Below are positions 6,598-37,357 of a stretch of 64,000 nt of DNA, in pieces. The stretch covers positions 503,883 through 567,882 of the forward strand of contig NZ_FNZN01000001.1 of NCBI RefSeq assembly GCF_900109345.1. The letters are read 5' to 3'. The stretch's first letter is position 1, and the number at the start of each line of letters is the position of its first letter. The DNA comes from Maribacter orientalis (GTDB lineage Bacteria; Bacteroidota; Bacteroidia; Flavobacteriales; Flavobacteriaceae). Made by a program: the position numbers and the translations under genes. The notes under the pieces are model-generated. The model saw only the letters and a program-made list of their open reading frames with translations, was not told the DNA's origin and ran no database searches.

Positions 6598-7140
6598 TTA
6601 ATCTGTTTTCAAATACTGTTCCACTTTTTTAACTGCTAAGTGATAAGAAGCTTTTAGGCCACCTACCGAAGTGTCTAATATTTCTGAAATTTCTTCATAT
6701 TTTAATTCCTGAAAATATTTCATGTTAAATACGAGTTTCTGTTTCTCTGGTAAGGTGGCTATTGCTTGTTGAAGCTTTAATTGAATTTGATCACCCTCAA
6801 AATAAACGTCTGCTTGTAAATTAGAGACTAATTTCTCTTGATAATCTATATCGGTTATCCCTTGTAATTTTGCTCTTTGTTTTATGAAACTTAAGGCTTC
6901 ATTGGTAGCAATTCGATACATCCAAGAAAAGAGTTTACTGTCTCCCTCAAACCCATCAATGTTTTTGTAAATTTTAATAAAGGTATTTTGCAGAACATCA
7001 TCTGCATCATCATGATTTAATACTATACCACGAATTTGCCAATACAAACGTTCTTTGTAAGTGTTAACCAATATTTTAAACGCTTGCGCTTGTGTGTTCT
7101 TGGTTTTTAAATCTTGTACTAGTGCTTCCTCTACAATCAA
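6598..7140 (-). CDS. ECF-type RNA polymerase sigma factor
   Basis: A 180-residue sigma-70 family factor with only regions 2 and 4. Region 2 spans about 25-95 with DDADDVLQNTFIKIYKNI and FSWMYRIATNEALSFIKQ; region 4 spans about 125-178 with LPEKQKLVFNMKYFQELKYEEISEIL and the helix-turn-helix TSVGGLKASYHLAVKK. It is the first gene of an operon with a membrane protein and a Spy-like periplasmic protein, so it probably answers an envelope signal. An AAC-N16-CGTC element at 7169-7191 suggests it transcribes its own operon. Confidence 0.93.
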   Translation of the reverse strand: MIVEEALVQDLKTKNTQAQAFKILVNTYKERLYWQIRGIVLNHDDADDVLQNTFIKIYKNIDGFEGDSKLFSWMYRIATNEALSFIKQRAKLQGITDIDYQEKLVSNLQADVYFEGDQIQLKLQQAIATLPEKQKLVFNMKYFQELKYEEISEILDTSVGGLKASYHLAVKKVEQYLKTD

Positions 7141-7168
7141 TTTGAATTGAGGTTTATTTAGGTGGTTA

Positions 7169-7191
7169 GACGATAAAGTTAGCCAAAGGTT
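7169..7191 (-). promoter_or_regulatory. Candidate autoregulated ECF promoter
   Basis: On the minus strand AAC (7191-7189) and CGTC (7172-7169) are separated by 16 bp, about 30 bp before the sigma gene start. This is the usual -35/-10 layout of ECF promoters, and the same AAC-N16-CGTC recurs before the second ECF gene at 40577. Confidence 0.5.
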
Positions 7192-7242
7192 TAATCTTTT
7201 AACAAAGTTTAAGCTATAATTAGGAGTGCAAAAAAATGAAGA

Positions 7243-25162: not shown

Positions 25163-25702
25163 TTATTCTCGTTCTAACTCAATTCCATCTGTCGTGAAAG
25201 AGAATGCTTGCGCTCCTAAACCACCAACCATTACCGCTTGAAATAATGGATTTAATTGCTTTTTAGAATACCAATCTATTAAAAAATTAGCGCCACTACC
25301 ACCAGAATTATCTTGTTGTTCTATAACATAATCAATAGATTCCATTGGTTTAAGGTAGATAGGAGAATCTATATAGCTTCTCACTAAATCGCCTTGGGTA
25401 TTATAATAATCAATTGTACTCACGAACAGACTATCTCGAATACTCGTATTACGAATACTCAAGGTAGCTGTTAGCATTGTTCTAGTATCTCTAGTCTGAT
25501 TATAAATATCAGAATAGATTGGCACATATACCTGTCTTATCAGTGAATCTACTATAGCTGTATTTACACGTCTGTCAAGCATATGCTCGTCGAGTATTTC
25601 TACAGGTATTTCTTCATTCTTTAAGTCCTTGCAAGAACCAAGAAATGTTAAAAATAACACCGATAAACAAACACTAAATACTACAATTTTTGATTTATTC
25701 AA
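25163..25702 (-). CDS. DUF3124 lipoprotein
   Basis: A 179-residue lipoprotein with signal VVFSVCLSVLFLTFLGSC, lipidated Cys near residue 24. The mature part has VYVPIYSDIY, TATLSIRNTS, a YYNTQGDLVRSYI strand and GGSGANFLIDWYSKK, which are the conserved features of DUF3124. It is probably a beta-sandwich domain on the periplasmic side of a membrane. The role is unknown. It lies 10 bp after the end of gnd on the same strand, so it may be co-transcribed, but no functional link to the pentose phosphate pathway is evident. Confidence 0.8.
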   Translation of the reverse strand: MNKSKIVVFSVCLSVLFLTFLGSCKDLKNEEIPVEILDEHMLDRRVNTAIVDSLIRQVYVPIYSDIYNQTRDTRTMLTATLSIRNTSIRDSLFVSTIDYYNTQGDLVRSYIDSPIYLKPMESIDYVIEQQDNSGGSGANFLIDWYSKKQLNPLFQAVMVGGLGAQAFSFTTDGIELERE

Positions 25703-25712
25703 ACTTTAGTTT

Positions 25713-32106: not shown

Positions 32107-32889
32107 TTAGTTTTTAATTTTAAAAGAACCAGAGTTGGCATCAAATGAAATCATATCCGCAGGAAATAGCGTTTCAAAATTTTTATGTTCGATCAGTTTA
32201 CAAGGTTCTTCAAAAGGGTTAGCTTGCCCGTCTAAAATCAACATTTTATCACATAACTGTATTGACAATTCAATTTCATGACTGGTGAAAAGAATTGTTT
32301 TTTCGGTTTTATGTGCTATAGATTTCAAGAGTTTTAAAATTTGAACTTTATGGTACAAATCTAAATGAGTGGTTGGCTCATCTAAAAGTATAATACTCGT
32401 ATCTTGAACTAATGCTCTCGCGATCATAACACGTTGTAATTGTCCGTCACTCAATTCATAACATTTCTTATCTAGAAATGGTTCAAGCTCCAATAATGAA
32501 ACACTCTTAGTAATGAATGAAATGTCATCGGCAGATAATTTCCCTAGCCAATTGGTATACGGTTGTCTGCCTAAAGCCAGTAACTCTTTAACTGACATGT
32601 TTTTTGAAGCAATAGGTTCTGTAAGTACAACGCTAATCTTTGTGGCTAAATCTAAGGTATCGATTGATGCTAATTCTTTTCCTTCAATTTGAATGGAGCC
32701 AGAAATCTTGGATTGAAATCCGCCTATAGTTCGTAGCAATGTAGATTTACCAATACCATTTATGCCAACAATAGCAACAAGTTCCCCTTTTTTTAAGTCA
32801 AATGAAATATTCTTGGCGACGACTTTCTTGTCATATCCAACGGATAAATCACTAATATTTAGTACGCTATTTTGTTTTTCGTATTTGAT
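32107..32889 (-). CDS. btuD: Cobalamin/iron ABC transporter ATPase (BtuD-like), non-canonical start
   Basis: A full ABC ATPase: strand SDLSVGY, Walker A GINGIGKST, signature LSDGQLQR, Walker B ILLDEPTTHLD and H-loop TSHE. Between the in-frame TAA that ends btuC (32910-32908) and the Walker A there is no ATG, GTG or TTG codon; the first in-frame TTG (32739) lies after the Walker A Lys-Ser-Thr and would make a dead protein. I give the end at an ATC codon (32889) as a placeholder; GTT at 32892 or ATT at 32856 are alternatives. The reading frame is intact from the btuC stop onward. Either a rare start codon, stop read-through from btuC, start-codon decay or a sequencing error applies. It energises uptake of vitamin B12 judging by its locus. 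Confidence 0.72.
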   Translation of the reverse strand: MKYEKQNSVLNISDLSVGYDKKVVAKNISFDLKKGELVAIVGINGIGKSTLLRTIGGFQSKISGSIQIEGKELASIDTLDLATKISVVLTEPIASKNMSVKELLALGRQPYTNWLGKLSADDISFITKSVSLLELEPFLDKKCYELSDGQLQRVMIARALVQDTSIILLDEPTTHLDLYHKVQILKLLKSIAHKTEKTILFTSHEIELSIQLCDKMLILDGQANPFEEPCKLIEHKNFETLFPADMISFDANSGSFKIKN

Positions 32890-32907
32890 AACTTTATCTG
32901 GTTTAGA

Positions 32908-33939
32908 TTAAAACATCATTTTCTTTTTGCGCACTAATAACCATATAATCACGGGTGCCCCAAAAATACTAGTTATCGCATTGATAGGAAGTATACTCAT
33001 TGAGCCTGGCAGTTGTGCAATGGTATCGCAAATTAGCATTAAAATAGCTCCGCAGCTAAGTGAAGCGGGTATAAGAATCTTATGATCAGTAGTATGGAAT
33101 AGTTGCCGGGTTAAATGGGGCACAGCTAATCCTATAAAAGCTATGGGTCCAGAAAATGCAGTAATACATCCGGCTAAAAGACCAGTCGCTATAATAATTA
33201 TATAGCGCGATTTTTTCAATTGAATTCCTAAACTCTTGGCGTAATTTTCACCAAGTAAAAAGGCATTAAGTGACTTAATGGAGAGTATGCTTAATATAAT
33301 TCCAATAAAAGTACATAAACATAGAATCGCTAATTGCGTCCAAGAAAGATTACCTAAACTTCCAAAGGACCAATACACATATTGTTGTAGTTTTTCTGCT
33401 TTTGTAAAATAAGAAAGTACACTCACAAGAGCCGCGGTAATACTACCGAACATTAAACCTATAATTAAAAGTGCCATGGTATCCTTTACTCTCACCGCCA
33501 CAGTTAAAACGATAAGTAATACTAGAAAACTCCCAACACTTGATGCAACGGCCAAAGCAATATCGTTAAAAGCGGAAAATGTCATAAACCCTGAAAATAA
33601 AGAAGAGCCCATTATTAAAAGTGCCGCACCTAAACTAGCACCTGAACTTATGCCCAAAACATAAGGACCTGCTAACGGATTTCGAAACAATGTCTGCATT
33701 AAGAGTCCGCTTAAAGAGAGACCACTACCAACCAAGACAGCAGTTAAGGCTTTTGGAATTCTATAATTCCATATGATATAGGAATTTGAAGATTGACCGA
33801 AATCAGAATCGAAAATAACTTTCAGCGTGTCGATAACCGATATGCTTACAGAACCAAGACTTATGTTTACTATAAAACATACAATTAGCCCAAGGAGTAG
33901 AACTAAAAAATGAATTGCGTATGTAGGGTGTTTAGACAA
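32908..33939 (-). CDS. btuC: Cobalamin/iron ABC transporter permease (BtuC/FecCD family)
   Basis: A 343-residue inner membrane permease with about nine to ten helices. It has ALTAVLVGSGLSLSGLLMQTLFRNPLAGPYVLGISSGAS (about 60-98), the hallmark of FecCD/BtuC permeases, and the later GPIAFIGLAVPHLTR ATPase-contact loop. The only possible start is TTG at 33939, because the codon before it is the TAA of btuF and the next Met is far inside. It sits directly after btuF and before btuD in the same reading frame. The B12 role comes from the divergent riboswitch-controlled receptor gene; a siderophore role is the alternative. Confidence 0.88.
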   Translation of the reverse strand: MSKHPTYAIHFLVLLLGLIVCFIVNISLGSVSISVIDTLKVIFDSDFGQSSNSYIIWNYRIPKALTAVLVGSGLSLSGLLMQTLFRNPLAGPYVLGISSGASLGAALLIMGSSLFSGFMTFSAFNDIALAVASSVGSFLVLLIVLTVAVRVKDTMALLIIGLMFGSITAALVSVLSYFTKAEKLQQYVYWSFGSLGNLSWTQLAILCLCTFIGIILSILSIKSLNAFLLGENYAKSLGIQLKKSRYIIIIATGLLAGCITAFSGPIAFIGLAVPHLTRQLFHTTDHKILIPASLSCGAILMLICDTIAQLPGSMSILPINAITSIFGAPVIIWLLVRKKKMMF

Positions 33940-35088
33940 TTAAAGTAAGGGTTTAAAAAAGAACGGTTCATAGTTTGGTAATAAACCAGGATGTAAAATA
34001 TGAATTAAATCTTTTAATACGAGATCGGGTCTTTGCGGTGCCAGTTCGTAATATAGCGTGCCACCAGTATCACCCATAGTATTGGCCGTAGTGAATATCT
34101 TTCTTCTTTTGTAGGCATCAAACTGTAAATAATGTTTGCTTGATAATTCCATTTCCTGATAAGAATCGAATTGAGCAGGGCCAATCCAATATTCAGCATT
34201 TTTGGCTATGTCTAAAACACTTTCCCAACTTAAAGAGAGACTTCCATTATCTGGGTTATTATTCCATAGATAATCAGCATTGGCATCTTTTAGAAAATTT
34301 GCTGCCCAGCTTTTGCCACCAGGTAAGTACCAAACATCTTTATAAAGCGCACCACTAAGTACTGTTGGTTTTACTGTTACAGTTGCGGCCAATTCTTTAG
34401 CATTCAAATATGACAATTCAATGTTCTCAAAAAAGGTATTTGCTTCCTCTATTTTGTCGAAAAATGGAGCGAAAAATTTTATCCATTCTGCTTTTCCTAA
34501 AGGAGTTTCTTCTACCCAATCACCATTATAAATAACAGGTATATTAGAACGTTGTAGCGTTTCATAAGCACTGTTTCCGCCATTAATTGTAAAACCAACC
34601 ACCATCTTCGGTTGTAATGCTAAAACAGCTTCGGTATTTAGGCTTTCGTTGACTCCCAATTCTTTTATTTGCCCATTTTCAATACGTGCTCTGGCCGCCT
34701 TTGATGAAATAAATTTAGTATCTGGAAATCCAATAAGCTTATCTAAAACACCTAATTCCTCTAAAGCGGGTATATGTGTTGTTGAAGTTACCACCACATT
34801 TTCTATGGGTACCATAATAATAGCATCGAATTCATCTTTGTTTAAGGTTATAAGTCCTAGGTTCTCTTTAGGGATCAAAGCATAAGTGTAAGTTGCCTCT
34901 GCGTTCGGCCAAGGTGACAAGACTTTAATTATGGTTATGCCTGATGCCTTATATTCTATTGTAAACCCTTTTGCATAAGTTATCGAAGAACTATTGATGG
35001 GTGTTTGTAATAGTGATGAATCCTTTTTTTGTTCTTTGCATCCGCATAAAAAAAGTAGGAAACTTAAAAAGAGTACGTGTTTAAACAT
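33940..35088 (-). CDS. btuF: Cobalamin/iron ABC transporter substrate-binding lipoprotein (BtuF-like)
   Basis: A periplasmic substrate-binding lipoprotein of about 382 residues. The start MFKHVLFLSFLLFLCGCKEQ is a lipoprotein signal with Cys near residue 16. An ATG 24 bp further upstream (35112) is discarded because a -7 box TACTTTTG overlaps it (35117-35110). The class III binding-protein core begins with VVVTSTTHIPALEELGVLDKLIGFPDTKFISS and includes AVLALQPKMVVGF. There is no riboswitch on this strand before it. It is the first gene of the ABC operon; its TAA abuts the TTG start of btuC. Confidence 0.85.
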   Translation of the reverse strand: MFKHVLFLSFLLFLCGCKEQKKDSSLLQTPINSSSITYAKGFTIEYKASGITIIKVLSPWPNAEATYTYALIPKENLGLITLNKDEFDAIIMVPIENVVVTSTTHIPALEELGVLDKLIGFPDTKFISSKAARARIENGQIKELGVNESLNTEAVLALQPKMVVGFTINGGNSAYETLQRSNIPVIYNGDWVEETPLGKAEWIKFFAPFFDKIEEANTFFENIELSYLNAKELAATVTVKPTVLSGALYKDVWYLPGGKSWAANFLKDANADYLWNNNPDNGSLSLSWESVLDIAKNAEYWIGPAQFDSYQEMELSSKHYLQFDAYKRRKIFTTANTMGDTGGTLYYELAPQRPDLVLKDLIHILHPGLLPNYEPFFFKPLL

Positions 35089-35109
35089 CTTTGATTTACT
35101 TCTATTTTT

Positions 35110-35117
35110 CAAAAGTA
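35110..35117 (-). promoter_or_regulatory. -7 box of the btuFCD operon
   Basis: TACTTTTG on the minus strand (35117-35110) matches TAnnTTTG. RNA would start near 35103, leaving about 15 nt before ATG 35088. This decides the btuF start. No -33 TTTG at the usual distance is evident. Confidence 0.5.
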
Positions 35118-35179
35118 GTATTATAAAAGTTTACTTAGAAAGATTAAACAAAATGTTTATTTTCGCCGTGAATTTTGGT

Positions 35180-35405
35180 TTTCGCTGCTTATGGTGGTGA
35201 AATTAAAAGGGAATCCGGTGCAAATCTGGAACTGTTCCCGCAACTGTAAGTTTATGTCAACTACATCTATTGGCAAATAGATTTCGATTGGTACTTCTGT
35301 AGAGAAGATGTTATTTACTTCAAAGCCACTTTGTCAACTGAACCGGTTCAGAAAACATGGGAAGGCGAAATAACATAAAACAAGTCAGGAGACCTGCCTT
35401 ATTCA
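35180..35405 (+). ncRNA. Cobalamin (AdoCbl-type) riboswitch
   Basis: The conserved core is present in order: GGTG then TTAAAAGGGAATCCGGTG (35195-35220 region), CAAATCTGGAACTGTTCCCGCAACTGTAAG (split over 35221-35250), and the B12 box GTCAGGAGACCTGCC (35384-35398). It lies on the plus strand 80 bp before a TonB-dependent receptor gene. Binding of cobalamin should reduce receptor expression. The hairpin GCGTA...TACGC in the following stretch (near 35440-35464) could be the expression platform. The ABC operon is on the other strand and is not under this riboswitch. Confidence 0.93.
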
Positions 35406-35485
35406 AACAACAATGTTAAACTTTCGGGATAAAGGTTTGCGTATGGGTACAGACATACTACGCTCCCGTTTATGAATTTAAACGA

Positions 35486-37357
35486 ATGAAAAATTATTTT
35501 TTGTGGCCAACGGTCACAATATTACTATGCGCCAAAGTTGGTGGACAGGAGAAACAAGATTCCATTAATACATTACAGTTAGACGAGGTTGTCGTCAGCG
35601 ATTCACGTTTTGAATTAAAGCGTGAAAACTCTGGAAAGACGGTCATTTCCATTTCTCAAAAAGAACTAGAACAGAACCAAGGTCGTTCTATTGCCGAAAT
35701 TATCAATACTAAAAGTGGGATTGAAATAAACGGAACTAGAAGTTTTGCGGGGCAGAACTTATCTACCTATGTTAGAGGAGGTAACAATCGCCAAGTTTTA
35801 GTAATTATAGATGGTATTCAGGTTTCTGACCCATCTGGTACAAGTGCAGAATATGATTTAAGACTATTGAATACTTCTCAAATAGAAAGCATTGAAATTT
35901 TAAAAGGAGCAGCAAGTACACTTTACGGTAATTCTGCAGCAACAGCGGTTATAAATATTACAACCAAACAAGCCAAAAAAGAAGGACTTTCTATGGAAGT
36001 GATTTCGAGTATGGGTACCAACCAATCTCAGGATGACCAAAATTATAATATCTCTGATTTTTCAAACACGGTGAACCTTAATGCTAAGAAGGGGAAGATA
36101 ACATTTTTGGCTTCCGGAGGTCATCAGTTTACAGATGGATTATCTGCAGCTGTAGGTACTGAATCAGATGCATTGTCACGAATAGATGGAAATGTAAAGC
36201 TGGGTTATCAAATTTCTAAACGTTTTGACATATCCGCTTCTGCATATTATAATAAGTTGAACAGTGATTATGATAACGGATTTCCAATAGAAGATGCCGA
36301 TTTTTCATTTACTAGTGAACAGTCACGATTTTCATTGGCTTCTAAGTATAGTTATGAGAAGGGTAGTATACATGTCAATACAGCATTCAATCAAATAGAT
36401 AGATTTTTTATTTCTAGTTTTCCTGCTGCTTACAATTCTCGTTCTTATGTATTAGACGTTTTTAACAAATATACTTTTGCAGAAAAAATTTACACGATAG
36501 TTGGTTTAAATTATATTGATAATCAAACCTTGTTTTTAGAGGAGCAAAATTCGAACACTGTTGACCCCTATGTGAACATGGTATATGTTGGCAATGATGG
36601 CATAAATTTAAATGCAGGAGTTCGTTTAAATAATCATAGTAACTATGGCTCTAATTTTATTTATAACATTAATCCATCTTACAGGATGAATATAAACTCT
36701 GGGTATTTAAAGTTCATGGGCTCATACGCTACTTCGTACATAGCACCAAATTTATCACAATTATACGGTCCTTTTGGAGCCAATCAAGATTTAAATCCTG
36801 AAGAAGATACTACTATAGAAGTTGGTTTAGAATATAAATTGTCAGAAAAGTTTATACTTAACGCTGTTTATTTTAATAGGGCTGAAGATGATAGAATCGA
36901 ATACGTAACGATTGATCCAAATACATTTGAAAGTCAATATCGTAATTCAGCAAATACAGTTCATTTTAATGGAGTGGAGGTAGGCTTTAGTTCAAAACCT
37001 TTTAAATACTTTACATTGGATGCGAACTATACGCTTACAAGTTCTAAAGAAGGCTTGGCATTAAGAGTACCAAAAAATAAAGCTAATGTAAGTTTAGGAT
37101 ACAGTATTGGAGTAAAAACCTATGTAGCACTTACGTATCAATACGTTTCTGACCGAACAGATACTGATTTTGCGACTTTCTCAGAAGTTACTTTAGGTAG
37201 TTTTAGTTTAGCTAACCTACAATTGAAACATGATTTCTCGAATAGATTTGGAGCCTTTATAGCCGTTGATAATATTTTGAATGAGGAATATATAGAGCTA
37301 GTGGATTATACGACTAAAGGAAGGAATTTACGACTAGGATTTAAAATGAGTTTATAA
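35486..37357 (+). CDS. btuB: TonB-dependent cobalamin receptor (BtuB-like)
   Basis: A 623-residue outer membrane receptor: signal peptide (about 1-20, cleavage near GGQ), TonB box region LDEVVVSDSRF near residue 28, plug domain with GRSIAEIINTKSGIEING and ESIEILKGAASTLYGNSAATAVINITTK (about 55-160), and a 22-strand barrel ending in an aromatic-poor MSL terminus (RNLRLGFKMSL). The length is like E. coli BtuB (614). Control by the cobalamin riboswitch upstream and the divergent B12-type ABC operon support vitamin B12 as substrate. A terminator follows directly. Confidence 0.93.
   Translation: MKNYFLWPTVTILLCAKVGGQEKQDSINTLQLDEVVVSDSRFELKRENSGKTVISISQKELEQNQGRSIAEIINTKSGIEINGTRSFAGQNLSTYVRGGNNRQVLVIIDGIQVSDPSGTSAEYDLRLLNTSQIESIEILKGAASTLYGNSAATAVINITTKQAKKEGLSMEVISSMGTNQSQDDQNYNISDFSNTVNLNAKKGKITFLASGGHQFTDGLSAAVGTESDALSRIDGNVKLGYQISKRFDISASAYYNKLNSDYDNGFPIEDADFSFTSEQSRFSLASKYSYEKGSIHVNTAFNQIDRFFISSFPAAYNSRSYVLDVFNKYTFAEKIYTIVGLNYIDNQTLFLEEQNSNTVDPYVNMVYVGNDGINLNAGVRLNNHSNYGSNFIYNINPSYRMNINSGYLKFMGSYATSYIAPNLSQLYGPFGANQDLNPEEDTTIEVGLEYKLSEKFILNAVYFNRAEDDRIEYVTIDPNTFESQYRNSANTVHFNGVEVGFSSKPFKYFTLDANYTLTSSKEGLALRVPKNKANVSLGYSIGVKTYVALTYQYVSDRTDTDFATFSEVTLGSFSLANLQLKHDFSNRFGAFIAVDNILNEEYIELVDYTTKGRNLRLGFKMSL

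Follow-up and report, generated by a model that had tools for sequence, protein, structure and literature searches.

A conserved AUH codon as the probable start of btuD in Maribacter and related Flavobacteriaceae

The btuFCD locus and the missing start of btuD

This study concerns btuD, a gene for the ATPase of an ATP-binding cassette (ABC) transporter, in a stretch of 64,000 nucleotides (nt) from Maribacter orientalis (assembly GCF_900109345.1, contig NZ_FNZN01000001.1, positions 503,883 to 567,882), hereafter the window. The reading frame of btuD has no ATG, GTG or TTG codon near its expected start, as had been noticed in an earlier reading made from the letters of the window without database searches (the sequence-only reading). 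The gene belongs to an operon of three adjacent genes, encoding a periplasmic binding protein, a permease (FecCD) and the ATPase, with Pfam matches that are all above cut-off. The features of the locus, in window positions, are as follows.

33940..35088, minus strand: btuF-like substrate-binding lipoprotein (Pfam Peripla_BP_2), likely start ATG 35088, stop TAA 33942-33940
32908..33939, minus strand: btuC-like permease, TTG start 33939-33937 abutting the btuF stop, stop TAA 32910-32908
32890..32907, minus strand: spacer of 18 nt separating the ATC from the btuC stop, apparently outside the BtuD coding sequence
32887..32889, minus strand: ATC, the proposed btuD start codon, from its position and conservation among relatives
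32107..32889, minus strand: btuD-like ABC transporter ATPase, 260 amino acids when read from the ATC (Pfam, NCBIfam and PDB relatives)
35159..35415, plus strand: cobalamin riboswitch, scoring 80.9 bits for Rfam RF00174 (cut-off 31.5) and preceding the divergently oriented gene of the TonB receptor
35486..37357, plus strand: TonB-dependent receptor, btuB-like (Pfam Plug and TonB_dep_Rec_b-barrel), downstream of the riboswitch

The btuFCD genes likely encode a vitamin B12 importer, because a cobalamin riboswitch adjoins them in the window as well as in 15 of the 16 relatives' loci that were searched. This riboswitch faces the TonB receptor gene and not the minus-strand btuFCD. The btuD frame contains a complete ABC ATPase domain (109.8 bits for Pfam ABC_tran, covering positions 2-137 of the 137 in the profile), and the PDB relatives of its product include FhuC (7lb8). 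The btuC product matches Pfam FecCD above cut-off. The locus resembles BtuCD-F of E. coli in combining a binding protein, a FecCD permease and an ABC ATPase with an adjoining, riboswitch-linked TonB receptor. It differs in the start codon of btuD and in its NCBIfam matches, which do not reach the equivalog cut-offs: BtuC is the best model for the permease, and FecE/BtuD-type models match the ATPase, all below cut-off.

In agreement with the sequence-only reading, the btuF stop is followed on the minus strand by the in-frame TTG of btuC, and the btuC stop by 56 sense codons in the btuD frame without any ATG, GTG or TTG (together NTG). The first in-frame NTG, TTG 32739, indeed lies after the Walker A motif, and the frame is open down to 32107. 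A run of 56 codons from stop to first NTG is the longest among the 54 open reading frames of at least 150 amino acids in the window, the next longest being 34.

The same reading took all three genes to be otherwise complete, and counted two ATG starts as missing. The btuF start is likely ATG 35088, with a predicted lipoprotein signal, instead of TTG 35112, and the TTG of btuC is an ordinary, conserved start, since an NTG is present in 113/113 btuC genes with a mapped anchor. In 92 of the 113 btuC genes read, btuC starts directly after an in-frame stop, and the expected start codon (ATG, TTG or GTG) abuts the btuF stop without a gap in 84 of 112.

Codon -17 among related btuD genes

We collected 218 btuD loci, which yielded 198 distinct genes, and counted codons backward from the conserved Gly-Tyr ahead of Walker A. 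Genes with no NTG 10-24 codons before this Gly-Tyr were classed as NTG-less; ATC, ATT and ATA are together called ATH, or AUH in the transcript. The closest named relatives of the window are Maribacter species, and the BtuD of M. arcticus is 92% identical to that of the window. Of 148 genomes in an order-level search, 25 gave a match, and 21 of these 25 belong to the same family.

An NTG occurs 10-24 codons before Gly-Tyr in 134 of the 198 genes, with a peak at 16-17 codons, and the other 64 have no NTG near the expected start. In 58 of these 64, an ATH stands exactly at codon -17 (ATC in 35, ATA in 12 and ATT in 11), a position that coincides with the NTG peak of the other 134 genes. The background rate of ATH at nearby codons is 33/544. 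The excess at codon -17 survives clustering, with ATH in 26/31 clusters at 75% identity and in 10/13 at 70%. Across all 64 NTG-less genes, the three bases of codon -17 carry 1.66, 1.73 and 0.63 bits of information, compared with less than 1 bit at every base of codons -20 to -18 and -16 to -13; figures of 2.0 bits for codon -17 apply to the 58 genes chosen by their ATH. Upstream of the AUH, in-frame stops are found at a distance of 2 to 10 codons in 49 of the 58 genes.

The same pattern appears in clades that were chosen on the tree without regard to start codon. In the 20-gene Maribacter clade that holds the window, codon -17 is ATC in 20/20 genes, whereas codons -16 and -18 vary, and an alignment of 15 of these 20 junctions displays the ATC as an invariant island amid a variable stretch. 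The spacer between btuC and this ATC measures 15, 16, 17 and 18 nt in 11, 5, 1 and 3 genes, respectively. In a 13-gene clade of Arenibacter and its kin, ATH is found at codon -17 in 13/13 genes (ATA 8, ATC 3, ATT 2). Judged from these sequences, the third base drifts without turning into G in the Arenibacter clade, because all 13 genes there retain ATH, and the preceding frame is not kept in the Maribacter clade, because its spacers range from 15 to 18 nt. Variation on the two sides of the AUH differs as well. In the 20 close Maribacter genes, the entropies by codon position are 0.93, 0.69 and 1.21 downstream, but 1.28, 1.07 and 0.86 upstream. Variability hence peaks at codon position 3 after the AUH but not before it, so that the variation is codon-like downstream only.

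What the comparison shows is the position of the AUH codon, its conservation between more variable neighbours and the frame-breaking length changes just upstream of it. On this basis, we consider it highly probable that btuD is translated from a conserved near-cognate AUH start, AUC 32889 in the window, and not from AUG, GUG or UUG. The sequence-only reading had listed this ATC as one of three rare start codons, together with GTT 32892 and ATT 32856, and among those listed it is the best supported. The codon at the place of GTT 32892 varies in the Maribacter clade (GTC 6, ATC 4, GAC 3, others; n=20), and at codon -6, the place of ATT 32856, ATH occurs in 27/64 NTG-less genes as compared with 58/64 at codon -17. 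The same reading had also envisaged that close relatives might have ATG or GTG at this place and share the one-frame order of the three genes. Neither is the case, as the Maribacter clade has ATC at the position of the window's ATC and the one-frame order is not shared.

Among named genera, AUH starts of btuD are found in Maribacter (13 of 14 distinct named genes), Arenibacter (11/11), Cellulophaga (2/3), Kriegella, Ulvibacterium and Muriicola. ATG is present in all 19 Flagellimonas and 12 Allomuricauda btuD genes that were read. The 30 loci from the genus search comprise 22 with AUH, 3 with TTG, 2 with ATG, 1 with GTG and 2 with other codons. A family-wide draw of 107 loci, which are best-scoring matches and not a random sample, contributed 100 (the other 7 duplicate named ones), with ATG in 56, AUH in 16, GTG in 15, TTG in 9 and other codons in 4. 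When the AUH and NTG states are placed on a FastTree protein tree of the 198 genes, at least 16 changes are required, of which 8 are forced by well supported branches. The absence of a normal start looks like an evolutionarily preserved feature of many Maribacter-related marine bacteria, and not like an error.

Initiation context, gene order and alternative readings

None of the 58 AUH genes has a Shine-Dalgarno (SD)-like motif (AGGA, GGAG or GAGG) at -22 to -5. Among NTG genes, such a motif is present in 2/38 of those separated from btuC and in 0/92 of those near btuC. An A-rich box about 12 bases upstream of the AUH is enriched: A is found at -12, -11 and -10 in 79, 82 and 68% of the AUH set, as compared with 34, 47 and 39% of the 38 btuC-separated NTG genes, and at -12 this amounts to 46/58 versus 13/38 genes (p = 1e-5). 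Furthermore, A or G occupies -3 in 48/58 and C or T occupies -1 in 44/58 of the AUH genes. In the spacer of the window, positions -13 and -6 are A and position -3 is G. For Flavobacterium johnsoniae, which is without SD sequences, excerpts of an earlier study describe the use of A at -3, -6, -12 and -13 (PMC6847099).

A conserved RNA hairpin over the start was considered and rejected. The window's own sequence at this place has a folding energy of -14 kcal/mol (z -1.86), yet 15 Maribacter sequences give no consensus structure. Within the own genome, ARAGORN revealed no special AUH-reading initiator tRNA in seven loci covering 8 of the 17 matches to an initiator anticodon-arm pattern, the other 9 places not having been scanned; it did find one tRNA-Met (CAT) with an initiator arm in those seven loci. 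The anticodon-arm pattern read backwards matched equally often.

The start type of btuD covaries with its distance to btuC. None of 55 AUH starts is 4 nt or less from the btuC stop, whereas 82 of 103 ATG starts overlap this stop (67) or lie within 4 nt of it (15). Likewise, btuC itself starts with TTG or GTG in 46/49 AUH operons, compared to 12/54 ATG operons. A link between gene order and the AUH start is suggestive. Yet shared ancestry may explain both correlations with btuC, because on independent tree pairs the association with nearness is not significant (4.4 to 0, median p 0.125) and the btuC start type gives no signal.

Apart from these tree-pair results, several observations weigh against an AUH start at codon -17. 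Six of the 64 NTG-less genes do not fit: ATC is found at -18 in L027 and L029, at -19 in L144 and at -14 in L190, while L151 and L182 have neither NTG nor ATH in the expected start region, with a GTC nearby. Conversely, 5 of the 134 NTG-class genes also carry ATH at codon -17, and their start is ambiguous. In 3 of the 58 AUH genes (L032, L178 and L184), an in-frame ATG is present upstream, within the btuC region. The window has C and not A at -12. Finally, that A and T are fully conserved in the 58-gene set and that G is absent follows in part from the definition of the class, although the clade counts are free of this effect.

The sequence-only reading had attached weight to the three genes lying in one frame. 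They do share a frame in the window, with a single TAA between btuC and btuD, which would suit readthrough of this TAA, slippage in btuC or a restart in the same frame, yielding a fused permease-ATPase. Among relatives, however, the one-frame order is not kept. Where the spacer of an AUH gene does not exceed 250 nt, phases 0/1/2 from btuC stop to btuD start number 25/20/9; several species have further in-frame stops between the two genes; some spacers exceed 100 nt, one measuring 1058 nt; and the spacer is not conserved as codons. A BtuC-BtuD fusion is hence highly improbable, and the one-frame order is, on this comparison, a coincidence, a by-product of the 18-nt spacer. A sequencing error, or a start decayed in one genome, would account for the missing ATG and nothing more. 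We give it practically no credence, against the finding that both the lack of NTG and the AUH at a matching place recur in separate assemblies of many species, one codon position being kept throughout with the ATPase frame intact.

In another reading, the AUH would only encode a conserved isoleucine within a longer protein, whose start would be another odd codon upstream. The in-frame ATG farther upstream in the three genes mentioned above would fit. Nevertheless, the stops 2 to 10 codons upstream in 49/58 genes, the spacers of 15 to 18 nt within one clade, the lack, across the 64 genes, of a codon at -22 to -18 with comparable conservation, and the alignment of the relatives' NTG peak at the same codon make this very unlikely. 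Termination-reinitiation deserves more consideration. A ribosome ending btuC would then restart at the AUH close by, bypassing full de novo initiation and coupling BtuD to BtuC. Spacers of 60 nt or less, the shortest being 10 nt, in 37/55 AUH genes agree with this. On the other hand, 17/55 spacers are 61-250 nt long and one reaches 1058 nt, long distances for simple coupling, and the 15 Maribacter sequences give no consensus RNA structure across the junction. We regard reinitiation as possible but on balance doubtful. It is compatible with an AUH start, and may be an addition to it in Maribacter.

Elsewhere in the window, a sigma-70 family factor (6598-7242, minus strand) has no ATG near its start; its first NTG is a TTG 34 codons past the stop, possibly a TTG start. 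In the gene for a DUF3124 protein (25163-25705, minus strand), a TTG follows the upstream stop at a distance of one codon, and the first ATG comes 41 codons in.

Proposed initiation of btuD and comparison with known AUH starts

If btuD starts at its AUH codon, the initiator tRNA would presumably read this codon as formylmethionine, as in other bacteria, and the A-rich upstream bases typical of SD-less bacteria may help to select it. By analogy with precedents in E. coli and S. aureus, the weak codon might hold down the synthesis of BtuD and render it sensitive to initiation factor 3 (IF3). Excerpts of an in vitro study state that IF3 disfavours weak third-base pairs (PMC10158994). In most species with an ATG btuD, the ATG overlaps or abuts the btuC stop, so that translational coupling of the two genes may have a similar effect there. 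A wider and rather unlikely idea is an AUH-start regulon of the Flavobacteriaceae, in which infC and genes such as btuD would keep AUC, AUU or AUA, and their synthesis would fall when IF3 is plentiful relative to ribosomes. Such a regulon would tie vitamin B12 import to translation capacity, in SD-less bacteria that use an A-rich box.

With the start proposed here, btuD joins the few genes known for a conserved AUH start, among which it is notable as a transporter gene in SD-less bacteria. It offers a natural series of AUC, AUU, AUA, GUG, UUG and AUG in one gene, in which start-codon strength can be compared without Shine-Dalgarno pairing. It also has a practical consequence. A gene finder limited to ATG, GTG and TTG would miss or truncate BtuD, the next NTG being downstream of Walker A.

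In the open-licence literature, we found nothing on the btuD start codon in Flavobacteriaceae, on ATC starts in Flavobacteria or on non-AUG starts of ABC transporter genes in Bacteroidetes; that on AUC start codons in bacteria held no btuD-like case in the titles and passages available. Natural genes with conserved AUH starts are few in the titles and excerpts retrieved (infC, pcnB, ccpN and cvfC1), infC being the best known. Gvozdjak and Samanta (2020, arXiv) is said to be a survey of genes preferring non-AUG starts.

In E. coli, infC is autoregulated by its own product, IF3. Like btuD on the present reading, infC of the bacteria studied here has a conserved AUH start. AUA was read there in 30/30 Maribacter loci and in 22 of 30 loci from the wider family, the other 8 being unreadable with the anchor used (52/60 in all). 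Its context (loci L112-L141 and L256-L285) is mostly GTC or GCC followed by ATA GCA. Contrary to infC, btuD is the gene of a transporter ATPase, and all three AUH codons occur at its proposed start, AUC being the main one. Expression of pcnB in E. coli is reportedly limited by an inefficient AUU start, going by the title of a paper by Binns and Masters in 2002. To the extent of that title, the two cases are alike; they differ in the gene, and the host of pcnB uses SD sequences.

The closest parallels outside infC come from Staphylococcus, as far as the excerpts of one study reach (PMC13009471). There, infC of S. aureus starts with AUA, and conserved AUA or AUU starts (ccpN, cvfC1 and the AUA of citZ) yield ~10% of the output of AUG in poor medium, while the AUH start of ccpN yields up to 30% in rich medium. 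The ccpN and cvfC1 sites carry extended Shine-Dalgarno pairing (PMC13009471), in contrast to btuD, where 58/58 AUH genes have no SD-like motif. Yet ccpN (AUA, also in Bacillus) and cvfC1 (AUU) share with btuD what appears to be the same feature, a conserved AUH start in a gene other than infC (PMC13009471).

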